Positions 160 through 10,930 of a DNA stretch of 37,240 nucleotides are shown one piece after another (position 1 is the first letter of the stretch; every line of letters begins with the position of its first letter). Position numbers and translations under genes: made by a program. Source of the DNA: Alphaproteobacteria bacterium (lineage in GTDB: Bacteria; Pseudomonadota; Alphaproteobacteria; UBA9219; RGZA01); contig JANQEX010000006.1 of assembly GCA_028278105.1 (NCBI GenBank), positions 1 to 37,240 on the forward strand, in the 5' to 3' direction. The notes beneath the pieces were generated by a model, which was not told the origin of the DNA, searched no databases, and saw only the letters and a program-made list of their open reading frames with translations.

Positions 160-857
160 TCATGGACGCAGAAGATGTGATAGAAGTACCCGGAATAAGA
201 AGTCACTTTCGCATATGATCCCGTGTAACCACTTGGGCAGCCTGAAACGGTCGAGACCTGTAGCCCCCCGGCGGTCCCACAGACGGCGGTCAAAGTGTTT
301 CCTTTGCATTTCGTGATGGGGGAGTTCATGTCATAAAAGGGGCTGCCGTAATTGCACCACACCTCCCGAAGACCGCATAAAGTGCCGGCGTCCGCAGAGG
401 CCGCGGCGGCCCAGGTCTGGTCGCCGCGCAGATAGGTGGAACTGTCCGCCGCGCCGCTGCCGAGCCGCTCCGCCGGCACCGTGCCGCTGGAAAGGTTCGA
501 GGCGTTCAGCGTGGTAAGGTTCGCGCCGGAGACCGCGGGCAACGTGGCCGGGAACTGTGCCGCCTGTAGCGTGCCGCTGACTTGTGAGGTAAGGCTGATG
601 GCCGCGGTGGTGCAGTTGATCACCGAGCCGTCGGTGGTGCAGAAACTGCCATTCGTCAGCGTACCGACGTTTATGGCCCCGCTGGAGCCGGCATTGACCC
701 AGTCCGTGCCGTTGCAGAACTGCACGACCTTGTAGGTGCTGTTATAGATGACATCGCCTTCATTGCCCGGCGGGGTCGAGCAGTCCGCCGCACGCGCATC
801 TCCTATCCAAAGCGCGAGCGCCAGCACCGCCAGGACAAGGCCAATCCGCCGGCCCAT
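156..857 (-). CDS. Secreted tail-fibre-like protein
   Basis: A protein of about 233 residues with an N-terminal signal peptide (GLVLAVLALALWIGDARA). The middle is Gly/Ser/Thr/Asn-rich and resembles phage tail-fibre and bacterial adhesin stalks (segments such as SGANLTTLNASNLSSGTVP and STYLRGDQTWA). The C-terminal part carries many cysteines (CGLREVWC, CKGNTLTAVC, SGCPSGY, FCVHD), consistent with a disulfide-bonded head outside the cytoplasm. The ATG at 857 overlaps the stop of the upstream gene (TGATG); a GTG one codon earlier is possible. It is probably cotranslated with the 95-residue protein upstream, under the leader at 1151-1328. No phage structural or packaging genes are nearby, so it is likely a host surface protein or a relic. 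The exact function is unknown. Confidence 0.7.
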   Translation of the reverse strand: MGRRIGLVLAVLALALWIGDARAADCSTPPGNEGDVIYNSTYKVVQFCNGTDWVNAGSSGAINVGTLTNGSFCTTDGSVINCTTAAISLTSQVSGTLQAAQFPATLPAVSGANLTTLNASNLSSGTVPAERLGSGAADSSTYLRGDQTWAAAASADAGTLCGLREVWCNYGSPFYDMNSPITKCKGNTLTAVCGTAGGLQVSTVSGCPSGYTGSYAKVTSYSGYFYHIFCVHD

Positions 858-1144
858 CACTCGCCGCCCCGTGCGCCGCCATGGACGGGCAGATGCAAAA
901 CCGCGTCGCCCTGGCGATCCTTGACCGCTTGCCCTGCTTCAAGCCGCTTCACGGCCTGCACGAGACAGATTAGCGCTGCTGTCCCGTCTTTTCCGGCCAA
1001 GGCTTTCTCGGCGGCAGCGATGGCCTCATGCGCCGTGACGCCACAATGCTTTGGCTCCACATCCCGCAGGCCGCCTTGCACGGGCGGCGCGAAAAGGAAT
1101 AGTCCCGCCATTCCCGCAATGATGAGTGACCGGCGAGCGCCCAT
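857..1144 (-). CDS. Small secreted protein of unknown function
   Basis: A 95-residue protein with a positively charged start (MGARRS), a hydrophobic stretch (LIIAGMAGLFLFAPPVQG) that looks like a signal peptide, and then an alpha-helical Ala-rich domain with two cysteines (KHCGVTAHEAIAAAEKAL, ALICLVQAVKRL). The ATG at 1144 was chosen because a strong GGGGGAG ribosome binding site lies 7 bases upstream; a TTG two codons earlier is less likely. Its stop overlaps the start of the tail-fibre-like gene, so the two form an operon. The ribosome binding site lies inside a hairpin of the structured leader, which suggests translational control. No family was recognised. Confidence 0.65.
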   Translation of the reverse strand: MGARRSLIIAGMAGLFLFAPPVQGGLRDVEPKHCGVTAHEAIAAAEKALAGKDGTAALICLVQAVKRLEAGQAVKDRQGDAVLHLPVHGGARGGE

Positions 1145-1150
1145 GCCCAA

Positions 1151-1328
1151 ACTCCCCCTGGTGGCTGGGAGTTAGAAAATCGCTATTAGACGACTGCAGG
1201 GGCCTTTGGCCGTGAGGCTTGGACATACGCCACTGCCTCCCAGCCCGACGGGCCGGAGGCAGCGTTCATCTCGGCAACGCTCGTTTCCGCTAATAGCGAG
1301 GTTTCTACACCCCGGAAACGGCAAAGGC
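1151..1328 (-). ncRNA. Structured leader RNA element, copy 1
   Basis: Read on the minus strand, the element starts with a CGGC-CTTT-GCCG hairpin, then GGGGTGTAGAAA, TCGCTATTAG-type sequence, internal hairpins, and the complementary arm CTAATAGCGA-TTTTCTAACTCCC. The arms at 1290-1313 and 1168-1189 pair over about 20 bases. The last arm (AACTCCC) can instead pair with GGGGAGTT at 1150-1157, the ribosome binding site of the gene at 1144. The internal hairpin CTCC-GGCCC/GGGCT-GGGAG and the GCAG/CTGC stem match copies 2 and 3 in position but not in sequence. The conserved unpaired words are CGTATGTCCA and AAAGG. The element is inferred to be a cis-regulatory RNA. Confidence 0.6.
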
Positions 1329-2880: not shown

Positions 2881-3265
2881 ACCCCTTAATCCCCTCCCTT
2901 CCGCCTCCGCTCTTCAAGCTTCGGCGGACGGGCTTGCTCCAAGGACCTCGGCGTAGCCGAAGGCGAAGACGGGCAAGGGGAGGGGAAATTCTTCCTCTCC
3001 CCTTGGGGGAGAGGTTGCAAGAACTTGGGTTTAGACGCGAAGCGGCTAAACCCTTAGTTCTTGCTGGTGAGGGGTTCCCTTCCCTACCCCTCTCCGCCTT
3101 TGCTCTACGCGCTTCAGCGGACGAGCTTCCTTCAAGGACCTCGCCGTAGCTTTAGCGAAGGCGGGCCAAAGGGAGGGGGCATGTGACTTTCATCCCCCTC
3201 TTGTGTGTTTGCCTCCGCAAGCTTCGGCGCGACGAATAGCCAAGACCCCGGCATAGCCGGGCGCG
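2881..3265. repeat. Dispersed TTCGGCG/GGACCTCGGCG repeats and GC-rich stretches
   Basis: There are three partial copies of one dispersed element (words AAGCTTCGGCG, CGGACGAGCTTC, AAGGACCTCGGCGTAGC) separated by C-rich and G-rich tracts. Related copies lie at 10560-10660, 10780-10825 and 19270-19345. Apart from the weak peptide at 3190-3303 I see no gene here. Confidence 0.65.
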
Positions 3266-3303
3266 GTCTGCCTGACTTTGCCTTTGCAGGTACACGGCAT
3301 CAT
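3190..3303 (-). CDS. Possible small cysteine-containing peptide
   Basis: A 37-residue reading frame beginning MMPCTCKGKVRQTAPG. An AAGGA ribosome binding site lies about 9 bases upstream of the first ATG. The first 16 residues and the preceding 100 bases are almost identical in the second copy at 10477. After residue 16 the two copies diverge because a dispersed repeat is joined on. The peptide is divergent from the membrane protein at 3569, with the structured element between them. It could be real, but conservation may instead reflect the nucleic acid. Function unknown. Confidence 0.3.
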   Translation of the reverse strand: MMPCTCKGKVRQTAPGYAGVLAIRRAEACGGKHTRGG

Positions 3304-3347
3304 TTTTCTGTTTCCTTCCCGCGCCGGTTTGCCTAATCTGTGCGGCG

Positions 3348-3563
3348 AGGCGGTTAGTCCCGCCTTGGGGCATTAGAACCCTTGCTGTAACCGGTTGTGT
3401 GACCGTTCTCGCACTCCTCGGCCTTCGGGTCGGGGAGGCACAGGCGCATGTACAGGGCGAAAGCCTAAAGGCCTGCGCGGCCTCTCTCTGAGTAGGTTTG
3501 TAAACTCCCCGGCCACCAGAGGGGTTGGCTCTCTGGTCGGCCATTTTCCTTAAACCGGGGAGT
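3348..3563 (+). ncRNA. Structured leader RNA element, copy 2
   Basis: It opens with hairpin AGGCGG/CCGCCTT (3348-3366), then GGGGCATTAGAACC. Internal hairpins follow: CTCCTCGGCC-TTCG-GGTCGGGGAG (UUCG-type loop) and GGGC-GAAA-GCCT (GNRA loop) inside a CAGG/CCTG stem. The far arm GGTTTGTAAACTCCCC closes the element. ACTCCCCGG (3504-3512) is perfectly complementary to CCGGGGAGT (3555-3563), which holds the ribosome binding site of the membrane protein at 3569. A CCAGAG/CTCTGG hairpin sits between them. Both stable tetraloops appear on this strand, which favours it as the transcribed one. The outer long-range helix is weaker here than in copies 1 and 3. Confidence 0.65.
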
Positions 3564-3568
3564 ACATC

Positions 3569-3757
3569 ATGATGACCTACCTTTCCGCACTTCTGACCGA
3601 GTCGGTCCTTTACCCGTTCATGTTTATGTGTTTCGTCGCGGCGGCGACGCTCATGGCTGTCGGCTATCACCAGCGCATGCAGGTGCTGGAAAAGCAGAAC
3701 AACGAAATCCTTGCCCTGCTCCGGCGCATGGCCGGCGTCCCGCAGGAAAAAGACTGA
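3569..3757 (+). CDS. Small single-span membrane protein, paralogue A
   Basis: A 62-residue protein. One membrane helix covers about residues 14-33 (FMFMCFVAAATLMAVGY) and a heptad-like helix follows (RMQVLEKQNNEILALLRRM), so it may oligomerise at the inner membrane. Residues 18-53 are identical to paralogue B at 10021-10209, while both ends differ. The GGGGAG ribosome binding site lies 6 bases before the ATG at 3569 and is sequestered by the leader element; a second ATG follows directly. No known family was recognised. Small hydrophobic proteins under RNA control include type I toxins and stress peptides, but nothing here proves that role. Confidence 0.7.
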   Translation: MMTYLSALLTESVLYPFMFMCFVAAATLMAVGYHQRMQVLEKQNNEILALLRRMAGVPQEKD

Positions 3758-4662: not shown

Positions 4663-4767
4663 GGGGCGGAAGGGTCTTGAGGGCCGAAAGGGTCAACAAG
4701 GCATGGCGGACCCTCTTGCCCCTTCCGACCCTTTTGACCCTGCTTATGACCCTTTCGCCCCTCTTCC
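4663..4767. repeat. GGGTC-type degenerate hairpin (family A)
   Basis: The left arm AAGGGGCGGAAGGGTC... pairs in several registers with a right arm rich in TTGACCC and GACCC words. It lies between the divergent Crp/Fnr and metXW genes, so any metXW promoter and leader must pass through or around it. Confidence 0.75.
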
Positions 4768-4811
4768 TCATGCCGGTTGCCCCGGCGCGCGCAACAGGGC
4801 AGATTCGCACC

Positions 4812-6725
4812 ATGACCTTTCCATTCTCGTCCTTGCCTTCTCCCTCCCACGGGGATTTCGACCCCGCCGCTTTGCCCGGCCGGCGCGTGCGCATTCCGGG
4901 CCCGCTGAAGCTGGATTGCGGCGGGCATTTGCGCGATTACTGGATCGCCTGGCAGACCTACGGGCAACTGAACGCGGACAAAAGCAACGCCGTCTTCATC
5001 TGCCACGCGCTGACCGGCGACCAGTTCGTGGCCGAGAACCACCCCGTCACCGGCAAGCCCGGCTGGTGGGAGACGGTGGTGGGGGACGGCAAGGTGATCG
5101 ACACGCGCCGTTTCTTCGTGATCTGCGCCAACGTGCTGGGCGGCTGCATGGGCAGCGCGGGGCCGCGCACCATCAATCCCGCGACCGGCAAGCCTTACGC
5201 GCTGGATTTTCCGGTCATCACCATCAACGACATGGCCCGCGCGCACAAGGCGCTGATCGACCATCTGGGCATCCCGAAGATATTCCTCATCATCGGCGGA
5301 TCGATGGGCGGCATGCAGGCCCTGGCCTTCGCCGCCCTGTTCCCGCGGGCCACCGGAGCCTGCGCCGCCATCGCCACCGCCGCCCGCCATTCGGCCCAGA
5401 ATATCGCCTTCGGCGAGGTGGGGCGGCAGGCCATCCTGGCCGATCCCGCCTGGAGCGGCGGCGGCTATATCGTCCAAAAAACCCTGCCGTCGGCGGGGCT
5501 TTCCGTGGCGCGCATGGCCGCCCATATCACCTATCTGTCGGAAGCCGCCTTGCAGCGCAAGTTCGGCCGCAAGCTGCAGGACCGCCCGGCCGTCTCCTTC
5601 GGCTTCGACGCCGATTTTCAGGTGGAATCCTATCTGCGCCATCAGGGTCACAGCTTCGTGGCGCGCTTCGATCCCAATTCCTATCTCTACATCACCCGCG
5701 CGATTGATTACTTCGACCTTGCCGCCGATCTGGGCGGCGGCCGGCTGGCCGATGCCTTCGGCGGCACGCCGACGCGTTTTTTCGCGTGCAGCTTCACCAG
5801 CGACTGGCTCTACCCCACCTCCGAGTCCCGCCATCTGGTGCGGGCGCTGGCCGCGGCGGGCGCGCCGGTTTCCTTCGTGGAGATCGAAAGCGACAAGGGC
5901 CACGACGCCTTTTTGCTGGACGAGCCGGAATTTCACCGGCAACTGGCGGGGTTTATTCGGGGGTGCGAGGAGATGCAGGTTCGAAGGGACGAAGGTGCGA
6001 AGGTTCGAGGGTGCGAGGGTTCGGGGGGTCGCGGGTTCGGGGACACGAGGGTGCGTGGGCGTGAAAGTTCGCGGGGATTTTTGTTTCCTCGAACCTCCGA
6101 ACCCCCGAACCCGCGAACCCCCGAACCCCTCGCCCCCGAATTGCAACTCATCGCCAACATCATTCCCGCGAACGCCCGCGTGCTGGACGTGGGCTGCGGC
6201 GACGGCGTGCTGCTGGACTGGCTGCGCGTCCACAAGGACGTGACCGGCTGCGGGCTGGAGATCGACCGCAAGCGGGTGGAGGACGCCATCGCCCGCGGCC
6301 TTCCGGTCATTCAGGGCGACGCCGACACCGACCTTTCCACCTATCCCGACGACGCCTTCGATGTCGCGGTCCTGAACCGCACGCTGACCGAGTTGCGCGA
6401 GCCGCTGGAGGTGGTCCGGGCGCTGCGCCGCCTGGCTTTCCGCGTGATCGTGGCGGTGCCGAATTTCGCCCATTGGCGGGCGCGCCTCAGCCTTGGGGTC
6501 CGGGGCCGCGCGCCGGTGACGCCGGCCCTGCCCCATGAATGGTATAATTCCCCCAATATCCGCTTCTGCGCGCTGGACGATTTTGCCGGTTTCGCCGAAG
6601 AGGCGGGGATGCGCGTGGAGCAGGCGCTGTTTCTGGACGCCGCGGACCGTCCCCTGCCGCCGCTCCTGCGCCCGGCCGCCAATCTGCTGGCGGCGTCGGG
6701 GTTATACGTGCTGGAGAGGGTGTAG
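4812..6725 (+). CDS. metXW: MetX-MetW fusion (homoserine O-acyltransferase plus MetW)
   Basis: A 637-residue protein. Residues 1-383 form an alpha/beta-hydrolase of the MetX type, which acylates L-homoserine from an acyl-CoA in methionine synthesis. The nucleophile is Ser164 (GGSMGGMQ), with the Asp of SDWLYP and the His of GHDAFLL. Residues about 441-637 are MetW, with SAM-binding-type motif VLDVGCGDG and family motifs [10 protein letters not shown] and [12 protein letters not shown]. metX and metW are normally separate adjacent genes. Here residues about 384-440 are encoded by a GGTTCG-type repeat, giving an Arg/Gly- then Pro-rich linker with no stop. The ATG at 4812 fits the start of MetX proteins; upstream in-frame sequence is only repeat. 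An ATG at the linker (5973) could allow separate MetW translation, but its ribosome site is too close. Confidence 0.88.
5980..6135. repeat. GGTTCG-type degenerate hairpin inside metXW (family B)
   Basis: The purine arm is an imperfect tandem array of about 9-nt words (AAGGTTCGAGGGTGCGA and similar). The complementary pyrimidine arm has CGAACC words (CCTCGAACCTCCGAACCC). Both arms are translated in frame as the linker between MetX and MetW. A second copy of this family lies just after the gene at 6726-6972. Confidence 0.85.
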
Positions 6726-6972
6726 GGTTGGAGGTTCGGAGGTGCGGAGGTTCGGAGGTGCGAAGGTTCAGAGGTTCATGGGTTCAAAGGTTCAGGGATT
6801 TGGAGGTCAACGGTGCAGGGGGCCGAAGGTTCGGAGGTGCGAAGGTACGAGGGTACGTGGGTGCGAAGGGTCGGAGGTTCATAGGGACAAAGGTTCAAAG
6901 GAAAGGGTTTTTCACTCTGAACCCCTGAACCTTTGAACCTTCGCACCTCCGACCCTCCGAACCTTCGAACCT
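6726..6972. repeat. GGTTCG-type degenerate hairpin between convergent metXW and ackA
   Basis: About 170 bases of degenerate GGTTCGGAGGTGCGAA words are followed by the complementary CCTTTGAACC/CCTCCGAACC arm. It fills the whole gap between two convergent stop codons, so it probably works as a bidirectional terminator. It is the same family as the in-frame linker of metXW. Confidence 0.85.
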
Positions 6973-10020: not shown

Positions 10021-10209
10021 TCAATCTTTTCCCGGCCCGTCTTCGGTAATGCGCCGGAGCAGGGCAAGGATTTCGTTGTTCTGCTTTTCCAGAACCTGCA
10101 TGCGCTGGTGATAGCCGACAGCCATGAGCGTCGCCGCCGCGACGAAACACATGAACATGAATATGTAAACGGTCGGCTCGTAAAGAAGTGAGGAAAGGTA
10201 AGTTATCAT
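10021..10209 (-). CDS. Small single-span membrane protein, paralogue B
   Basis: A 62-residue protein, paralogue of the one at 3569-3757. The membrane helix and following coiled-coil-like helix (VLEKQNNEILALLRR) are identical between the two, while the first 17 and last 9 residues differ. The ATG at 10209 has the ribosome site GGGGAG, which is complementary to CTCCCCGG further upstream in the structured leader (10265-10272). Preservation of the core against divergent ends and leader suggests selection on the protein. No known family. Confidence 0.7.
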   Translation of the reverse strand: MITYLSSLLYEPTVYIFMFMCFVAAATLMAVGYHQRMQVLEKQNNEILALLRRITEDGPGKD

Positions 10210-10214
10210 GATGT

Positions 10215-10432
10215 GCTCCCCGGTTTAAGGAAATGGCCGACCAGAGAGCCAACCCCTCTGGTGGCCGGGGAGTTAGAAAACCTAACCATAGGAAAGGTCG
10301 CGCAAACCTTTGGACTTTCGTCCTGAACATGCGCTTGCGCCTCCCCGACCCGAAGGTCGAGGAGTGCGTTAACGGCACACAAGCCGCCTATGGTTTTAGG
10401 GTTTCTACGCCCCAAGGCGGGACTGACCGCCT
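10215..10432 (-). ncRNA. Structured leader RNA element, copy 3
   Basis: On the minus strand it opens with hairpin AGGCGG/CCGCCTT, then GGGGCGTAGAAACC and AACCATAGG (complement of 10387-10395). The matching far arm is CCTATGGTT-AGG-TTTTCTAACTCCCC (complement of 10267-10292). Internal hairpins are CTCCTCGACC-TTCG-GGTCGGGGAG and GGAC-GAAA-GTCC inside a GCGCAA/TTGCGC stem. Against copy 2 the GNRA-capped stem changes from GGGC/GCCT to GGAC/GTCC, keeping the pairs. CTCCCCGG can alternatively pair with CCGGGGAG at the ribosome site of the gene at 10209. Confidence 0.65.
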
Positions 10433-10476
10433 CGCCGCACAGATTAGGCAAACCGGCGCGGGAAGGAAACAAAAAA

Positions 10477-10695
10477 ATGATGCCGTGTACCTGCAAAGGC
10501 AAAGTCAGGCAGACCGCGCCCGGTTTCGCCAAAGCTACGGCGGGGTCCTTGATGGACAAGTTTCCCCTCCCCTTGCCCGGCTTCGCCTTCGGCTACGCCG
10601 AGGTCCTTGAAGAAAGCTCGTCCGCCGAAGCTCGCGGAGCGGAGGCGGAAGGGAGGGGATCAAGGGGTGGGGTCCGCCGGTTTTCCATAGCGTAA
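10477..10695 (+). CDS. Possible small peptide, second copy, extended by repeats
   Basis: A reading frame of 72 codons starting MMPCTCKGKVRQTAPG, the same start as at 3303-3190, with AAGGA about 9 bases upstream. After residue 16 the frame runs through dispersed repeats (TTCGGCTACGCCGAGGTCCTTGA), so the long C-terminal part is probably not meaningful. It is divergent from membrane protein B across the structured element. Low confidence that it is translated. Confidence 0.25.
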   Translation: MMPCTCKGKVRQTAPGFAKATAGSLMDKFPLPLPGFAFGYAEVLEESSSAEARGAEAEGRGSRGGVRRFSIA

Positions 10696-10930
10696 ATGCC
10701 GGGACCTTGAAAAGACCAGCACTTCACCCCACCCCTAACCCCTCCCTCAAGGGGAGGGGAATATAAAGTCACCCCCCTCCCTTCCGCATCTCCGCCGAAG
10801 CTCGCAGAGCGAAGGCGGAGAGGGGGAAGGGGGAGGGATTATGGAGGGTCATAAAAAGGCGAAAGGGGCAAAAGGGTCCTTGACCCTCATGACCCTTGTG
10901 ACCCCCTCGACCCTTTTCGCGCAAGCCCTG
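10540..10930. repeat. Dispersed repeats plus GGGTC-type hairpin
   Basis: Two copies of the TTCGCC/GCCGAGGTCCTTGAAGAAAGCTCGTC-type element and C-rich/G-rich tracts lie at 10560-10830. A family A hairpin follows at about 10838-10925 (GGGTC words, then TTGACCC/GACCCTT words). The hairpin directly follows the end of the polysaccharide operon at 10931 and may terminate it. Confidence 0.7.

Follow-up and report, generated by a model that had tools for sequence, protein, structure and literature searches.

The leader in front of a 62-residue protein gene in the window (the whole stretch of DNA analysed, 37,240 nucleotides) is one copy of a covarying RNA of about 153 nt. The element is probably a C4-type antisense-RNA cassette of phage antirepressor-silencing descent, which would act as a two-state leader with copy-specific keys before genes of small secreted and membrane proteins. 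Its helices, the exclusive partners of its anti-ribosome-site arm, the complementarity of its keys and the association of its relatives with antirepressor genes were computed directly, and from these we infer an action in trans, the direction of the switch and its trigger.

The conserved RNA and its copies in the window

In an alignment of 25 copies, the nested fold of helices P1 to P5 comprised 42 pairs, 26 of which had changed on both sides; 94% of the cells were paired, none of 500 shuffles was as good, and the signal collapsed when the partners were slid. The pseudoknotted combination P1+Pd+P5 was paired in 96.3% of the cells (0/500 shuffles). By DNA search, 17 of 59 related genomes had the element, and by the covariance model 24 of the 33 genomes of the order and 27 of 190 across the class. 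The window's own genome of about 2 Mb holds 24 copies by the covariance model (25 matches on the fetched loci, one of them counted twice). The P5 motif alone was present in more than 100 genome contigs (Microvirga, Rhizobium, Caulobacter, Phenylobacterium, Magnetococcales and others) and in 73 phage contigs. When the window and 16 relatives were searched against Rfam at threshold, no family was assigned to the element, and no Rfam riboswitch matched it.

Three copies are located in the window. Copy 2, on the plus strand, extends over 3367..3517 (covariance model R1, 134 bits) and is abutted by a variable 5′ hairpin, P0 (3348..3365), identified by sequence reading, with differing hairpins at the same place in many relatives. 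The element opens with a 5′ hairpin, GGGG-CATTAGAA-CCCT (3367..3382), whose stem covaries in relatives and which carries the target-like site a1 TTAGAACC, followed by the b1 key GCTGTAAC (3383..3392). The central hairpin P4 (5′ arm CTCCTCGGCC, 3414..3423) has as its 3′ arm GGTCGGGGAG (3428..3437), which is at the same time the 5′ arm of the closing stem Pd. Hairpin P5 (3438..3478) holds the conserved internal loop AUGUNCAR...YAAAG, the motif that served to find the more than 100 relatives, and its helix was 97% paired with two-sided changes at six pairs. Alignment and swap tests define the antisense strand (3482..3505), made of b′ in the P6 loop and a′ (GGTTTGTAAA). Next come the anti-ribosome-site arm ACTCCCCGGCC (3504..3514), which is the 3′ arm of Pd as judged from duplex energies and covariation, the Pbeta hairpin GGCCACCAGAG...CTCTGGTCGGCC (3511..3542) and the ribosome site CCGGGGAGT (3555..3563) of the gene for a small membrane-type protein of 62 residues (3569..3757). 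A simple scan found no sigma-70-like promoter around copy 2.

Copy 3 (minus strand, 10260..10413; R1, 145.6 bits) has every helix intact, with the anti-ribosome-site arm ACTCCCCGG at 10265..10273 and the ribosome site CCGGGGAG at 10216..10223, and precedes a paralogous 62-residue protein (10021..10209) that is 84% identical to that of copy 2. Copy 1 (minus strand, 1160..1313; R1, 101.8 bits) belongs to a paralogous subgroup of 15 copies and carries the key CGCTATTAG/CTAATAGCG, the arm AACTCCC (1167..1173) and the ribosome site GGGGGAGTT (1150..1158), in front of a secreted-type protein of 95 residues (857..1144), one of many paralogues that this leader precedes in the genome. Copies 2 and 3, about 6.5 kb from each other, are an inverted duplication (3300-3757 plus, 10021-10480 minus), which includes the leader, about 70 nt upstream of it and the gene. 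Dispersed palindromic repeats of the type TCCGCC...CTTCGGCGGA flank them at 2900-2985, 3093-3178, 10621-10656 and 10791-10826.

The 62-residue protein had no match in Pfam, the window proteins had none in NCBIfam, and a search for related loci with the 62-residue protein returned no match. That the small membrane proteins have a toxin-like or immunity-like role is only our guess. In Microvirga, several leaders per genome stand before small-protein paralogues (loci L043, L051, L064, L079, L082 and others) of a family with the pattern SxxADxLxKFHTxPExIQALWL... and one probable membrane helix. A C-terminal E-I/V-x-ALL motif is common to small membrane proteins behind different leader subtypes (L250, L255 and window 3569-3757). 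Elsewhere in the window, repeats with an 8-nt period of the type GAGGTTCG/GAAGGTGC occupy 5977-6060 and 6724-6960. The first of these arrays lies within a long ORF (4677-6725) whose start appears homoserine acetyltransferase-like and whose end methyltransferase-like by eye, and on this sequence pattern the repeat seems to be the linker of a MetX-MetW-like fusion.

The anti-ribosome-site arm and its competing partners

The sequence-only reading had proposed that a C-rich arm of each copy pairs with the downstream gene's ribosome site, and its letters and coordinates proved correct for all three: ACTCCCCGG (3504-3512) with CCGGGGAGT (3555-3563) in copy 2, AACTCCC (minus, 1173-1167) with GGGAGTT in copy 1, and CTCCCCGG (minus, 10272-10265) with CCGGGGAG (minus, 10223-10216) in copy 3. 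The arm, ACTCCCC or AACTCCC, is thus complementary to the downstream ribosome site in three of three window copies. Beyond the window, the arm:SD duplexes of class A (window-type) had a median ΔG of −13.95 kcal/mol in the 24 copies of this order and −13.85 kcal/mol in 52 further copies, against a background of −9.1 kcal/mol for 432 SD-bearing genes (Mann-Whitney p 5.6e-9 and 1.3e-12, respectively), so that the pairing is not a matter of chance. This comparison with background genes was used instead of a cross-locus swap of arms and SDs, which gave z 0.3 and had no power because both partners are nearly invariant. Five variant copies carried an adjusted ribosome site together with their variant arm, namely L032 (CACCCCCA/TGGGGGT), L195 (CATTCCCCG/CGGGGAATG), L024 and L036 (AACUCCC/GGGGGUU in both) and L029 (CACTCCCC/GGGGAGTG); covariation of this kind was thus limited to a few variant copies, and in several others, e.g. 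L025, L085 and L089, preference for the own SD was absent.

The conserved switch is between P4 and Pd. In Pd, GGTCGGGGAG pairs with CTCCCCGRYC (96.7% of cells paired in the 25 aligned copies, compensatory two-sided changes at two pairs), and the same strand is used by P4 (93% paired, two-sided changes at four pairs). Since P4 and Pd are mutually exclusive, the two-state logic is real, and in this respect the earlier idea of a two-state anti-ribosome-site leader is upheld. Its other half, in which ACTCCC would alternatively close an outer helix with the 5′ GGGG, does not hold as a conserved feature. That helix was seen in the minimum free energy (MFE) fold of copy 3, yet its pairs never covary, and it was dropped as the conserved alternative, although it may form transiently. 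Instead, the 5′ GGGG and the neighbouring CCCC make up the stem of a small hairpin, and this stem reads GGAG/CTCC, CGGG/CCCG, GGTG/CACC or AAGG/CCTT in relatives.

Many window-type copies have the Pbeta hairpin behind the closing stem (swap test z 9.9, 0/2000). This hairpin incorporates GRYCACCAG, and CUCCCC stays opposite the ribosome site. All own-genome copies but the last few were evaluated; in most of them, the MFE fold placed the arm on the SD, and folds containing Pd were usually 3 to 20 kcal/mol worse, with equality in L235. From these predicted folds, the full-length leader would most simply be OFF by default. GATCACC as a mimic of the 16S 3′-end was considered and dropped, because its letters change together with the closing stem.

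Phage-type leaders and copy-specific keys

A second class of 69 loci, here called phage-type, has the layout a1-b1-antisense RNA-a2-b2-gene, with b2 at the ribosome site. Its antisense strands matched the ribosome site of their own downstream gene with z 9.1 (0/2000 swaps), the last 45 nt before the start with z 11.1 and the 5′ part with z 7.0, and the closing stem was strongly locus-specific (z 16.3). About half of the genes behind these leaders (53 scanned) were antirepressors: 12 Rha, 9 Bro-N, 4 P22_AR_N, 3 ORF6N and 1 AntA. The 'anti-repressor' families also top the PHROGs list for phage-type genes. Window-type copies keep a1, b1, the GCGG hairpin, the antisense domain and P5 (P1/P2, i.e. 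a1b1, z 17), have lost a2/b2 (z 0.9) and have gained P4. One phage contig bearing a phage-type leader also holds a Type II hammerhead ribozyme (L207:238-318, 55 bits).

Among the 24 copies of the own genome, the duplex of a1b1 with the own a′b′ averaged −21.5 kcal/mol versus −10.8 kcal/mol with foreign strands (z −15.6, 0/5000). For 19 of the 24 no foreign strand bound better, and four of the other five were beaten by a single foreign strand. The 15 paralogous copies, about 90% identical outside the key, differ mostly at the key helix. Five key positions show 24-36% identity (25% at random), all 15 keys of 9 bp are different, and each matches its own partner at eight or nine of nine bases. A second genome, G024, shows the pattern too (z −7.7, 0/5000), although the model placed some of its 5′ ends poorly. 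A mere scaffold helix need not differ between paralogues and should drift more slowly than unpaired bases. The keys suggest, from their sequences, antisense RNAs that act in trans and are mutually insulated, as would be expected if cross-talk were harmful.

The same observations bear on a purely cis-acting structured leader, i.e. a riboswitch for a metabolite, ion or protein, in which the P5 internal loop would be the pocket and P1/P2 the scaffold. The P5 motif AUGUYCARGNCGNAAGNCYAAAG is kept from phages to many alphaproteobacteria, and the exclusive P4/Pd pairing with its SD platform does resemble a riboswitch. We nevertheless consider it unlikely: the downstream genes share no pathway, the phage-type members hold antisense copies of the ribosome site, and a P2 helix with 15 different sequences in 15 near-identical paralogues is not needed for a scaffold. 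The sequence-only reading had left riboswitch, thermosensor and antisense control side by side; the antisense-controlled leader is retained, and the first two are disfavoured, since the architecture and the copy-specific keys, like the antirepressor genes found behind phage-type leaders, indicate a C4-type antisense RNA.

Copy 2, the copy featured in that reading, is an exception to the key pattern and the one whose 5′ arms mismatch their own antisense strand: for its a1b1, nine foreign strands are better partners than its own. The mismatches are between a1 TTAGAACC and a′ GGTTTGTAA, and between b1 GCTGTAAC (3383-3392) and b′ TCTGAGTA (within 3482-3505), and in sequence its halves look as if recombined from different copies. 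This mismatch, together with the missing a2/b2 of the window-type copies, is what would be seen if the elements were decaying descendants of phage cassettes that had lost their regulation. Such C4-type remnants are improbable, considering that decay would strike the pairing first, while the backbone positions are about 90% identical and it is the pairing with the own partner that most copies preserve.

The roughly 24 dispersed copies, often with paralogous ORFs, and the inverted duplication of copies 2 and 3 could also be taken for a mobile repeat, attC-like as in integrons or of another insertion element, with DNA recombination hairpins for pairings. This is very unlikely in view of the position of the element upstream of ORFs, whose SD and start follow closely, and of the G.U pairs in several helices, which are expected for RNA. 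An attC site proper (RYYYAAC/GTTRRRY ends) was rejected: the three bases before AAC are free (TCT, TCG, CTG, ACT, ATC), and the GTTRRRY consensus is therefore absent. An RNA thermometer, in which heat would melt the arm:ribosome-site helix found in most of the MFE folds, can practically be dismissed, as these GC-rich helices of −10 to −20 kcal/mol are far too stable for ordinary RNA thermometers and as the keys, Pd and the antirepressors would stay unexplained.

For the favoured C4-type cassette, the following mechanism is proposed. The module would have originated in the antirepressor silencing of temperate phages and would since have spread before genes of small secreted and membrane proteins. 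Its RNA consists of a 5′ part, in which a hairpin with a1 precedes b1, and of an antisense domain with Pd as its closing stem, inside which lie P5 and P6; the P6 loop presents b′, and a′ lies next to it as a single strand. In the phage-type class, the antisense RNA would block translation at the second sites a2 and b2, the latter being the ribosome site before the gene. In the window variant, after loss of a2/b2, the 3′ arm of the closing stem is itself the anti-ribosome-site arm. In the OFF state a1b1 would pair with a′b′, P4 would form and the freed CUCCCC would cover the ribosome site, and in the ON state Pd would form, consume CUCCCC and leave the site open. The pair a1/b1 and a′/b′ would be the copy-specific key, probably read in trans by an RNA from the same locus.

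A wider reading, which we regard as possible rather than probable, is that this genome holds about two dozen phage-derived antisense switches whose 9-bp keys are under diversifying selection that blocks cross-talk. The switches would control small paralogous proteins of the secreted and membrane types and together would amount to a chromosomal array of units, immunity-like or toxin-antitoxin-like, that are insulated from one another. The C4-type reading itself would connect an alphaproteobacterial RNA that lacks annotation with the immunity RNAs of phages, supply a natural set of orthogonal antisense switches within one genome, and make it testable why copy-specific silencing is needed for small secreted and membrane proteins.

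Comparison with C4 and other small RNAs

By family model the element is not C4, and by layout, targets and gene it is C4-like. The Rfam C4 model (RF01695) gave no match in the window and 16 relatives at the gathering threshold, nor in seven loci at E≤1, when as a control the P1 c4 scored 68.8 bits; it thus misses an unannotated alphaproteobacterial group with putative C4-type control. The element's P5, in addition, has a conserved internal loop of its own. The P1 record AF234172 is annotated in the order a1, b1, c4 RNA, a2, b2, icd, ant1, and phages P1 and P7 share with the phage-type class both this order and the antirepressor genes. C4 RNA has three stems and is cut by RNase P from a longer transcript, its b′ loop covers the ribosome site and a′ confers specificity (PMC5320573). 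Correspondingly, the antisense domains of copies 1, 2 and 3 folded alone into a closing stem and two hairpins with b′ in a loop and a′ alongside (Pd, P5 and P6, with covariation in Pd and P5). The two target pairs of C4 were found in full in the phage-type class; window-type copies have the first only, are not followed by antirepressor operons, and differ further in the added P4 and in a closing stem that doubles as the anti-SD arm.

The P1 b1 region GCGGACAACCGC...GCGGTATTTTTGTG is similar to that of phage-type locus L093, GGCGGACAACCGCC...GGCGTTTTTTTGTG, and P1's GCGG hairpin with the U-tract behind b1 recurs in phage-type relatives. In L066, L088, L093 and other phage-type loci, the GCGG hairpin beside b1 shares bases with a U-tract hairpin, CCGCC...GGCGGTTTTTTT, and P1 shows a similar feature. 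Binding of the antisense strand at b1 could convert this U-tract hairpin to a terminator, which would be attenuation under antisense control. The CCA that follows the closing stem is nearly invariant in window-type copies only, and occurred in 12 of 67 phage-type loci against 12.2 expected; a tRNA-like CCA as the mark of an RNase P site is therefore unsupported in the phage-type class, where it is not enriched, and in window-type copies it hints at such processing indirectly at most.

In Acinetobacter baumannii, multi-copy phage-derived sRNAs have been described that derive from C4 (PMC5320573). They are alike in the many C4-like RNAs per genome and in their varying specificity region, and differ in that they match C4 proper and were reported as free sRNAs (PMC5320573), whereas here every copy precedes the gene of a small protein and has retained a matching a1/b1 of its own. 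The only Rfam matches of the element, weak though full-length in four members, were to sRNA-Xcc1 (RF02221), at 24.9-32.3 bits and thus below the 53-bit cut-off. sRNA-Xcc1 likewise stands directly upstream of a gene, being found before symE in integron cassettes (PMC12444791). A plasmid search with sRNA-Xcc1 gave one partial match and no symE locus for comparison. The weak full-length matches suggest that sRNA-Xcc1 may share a wider group with the element, and control of the C4 type may then explain its place in front of symE.
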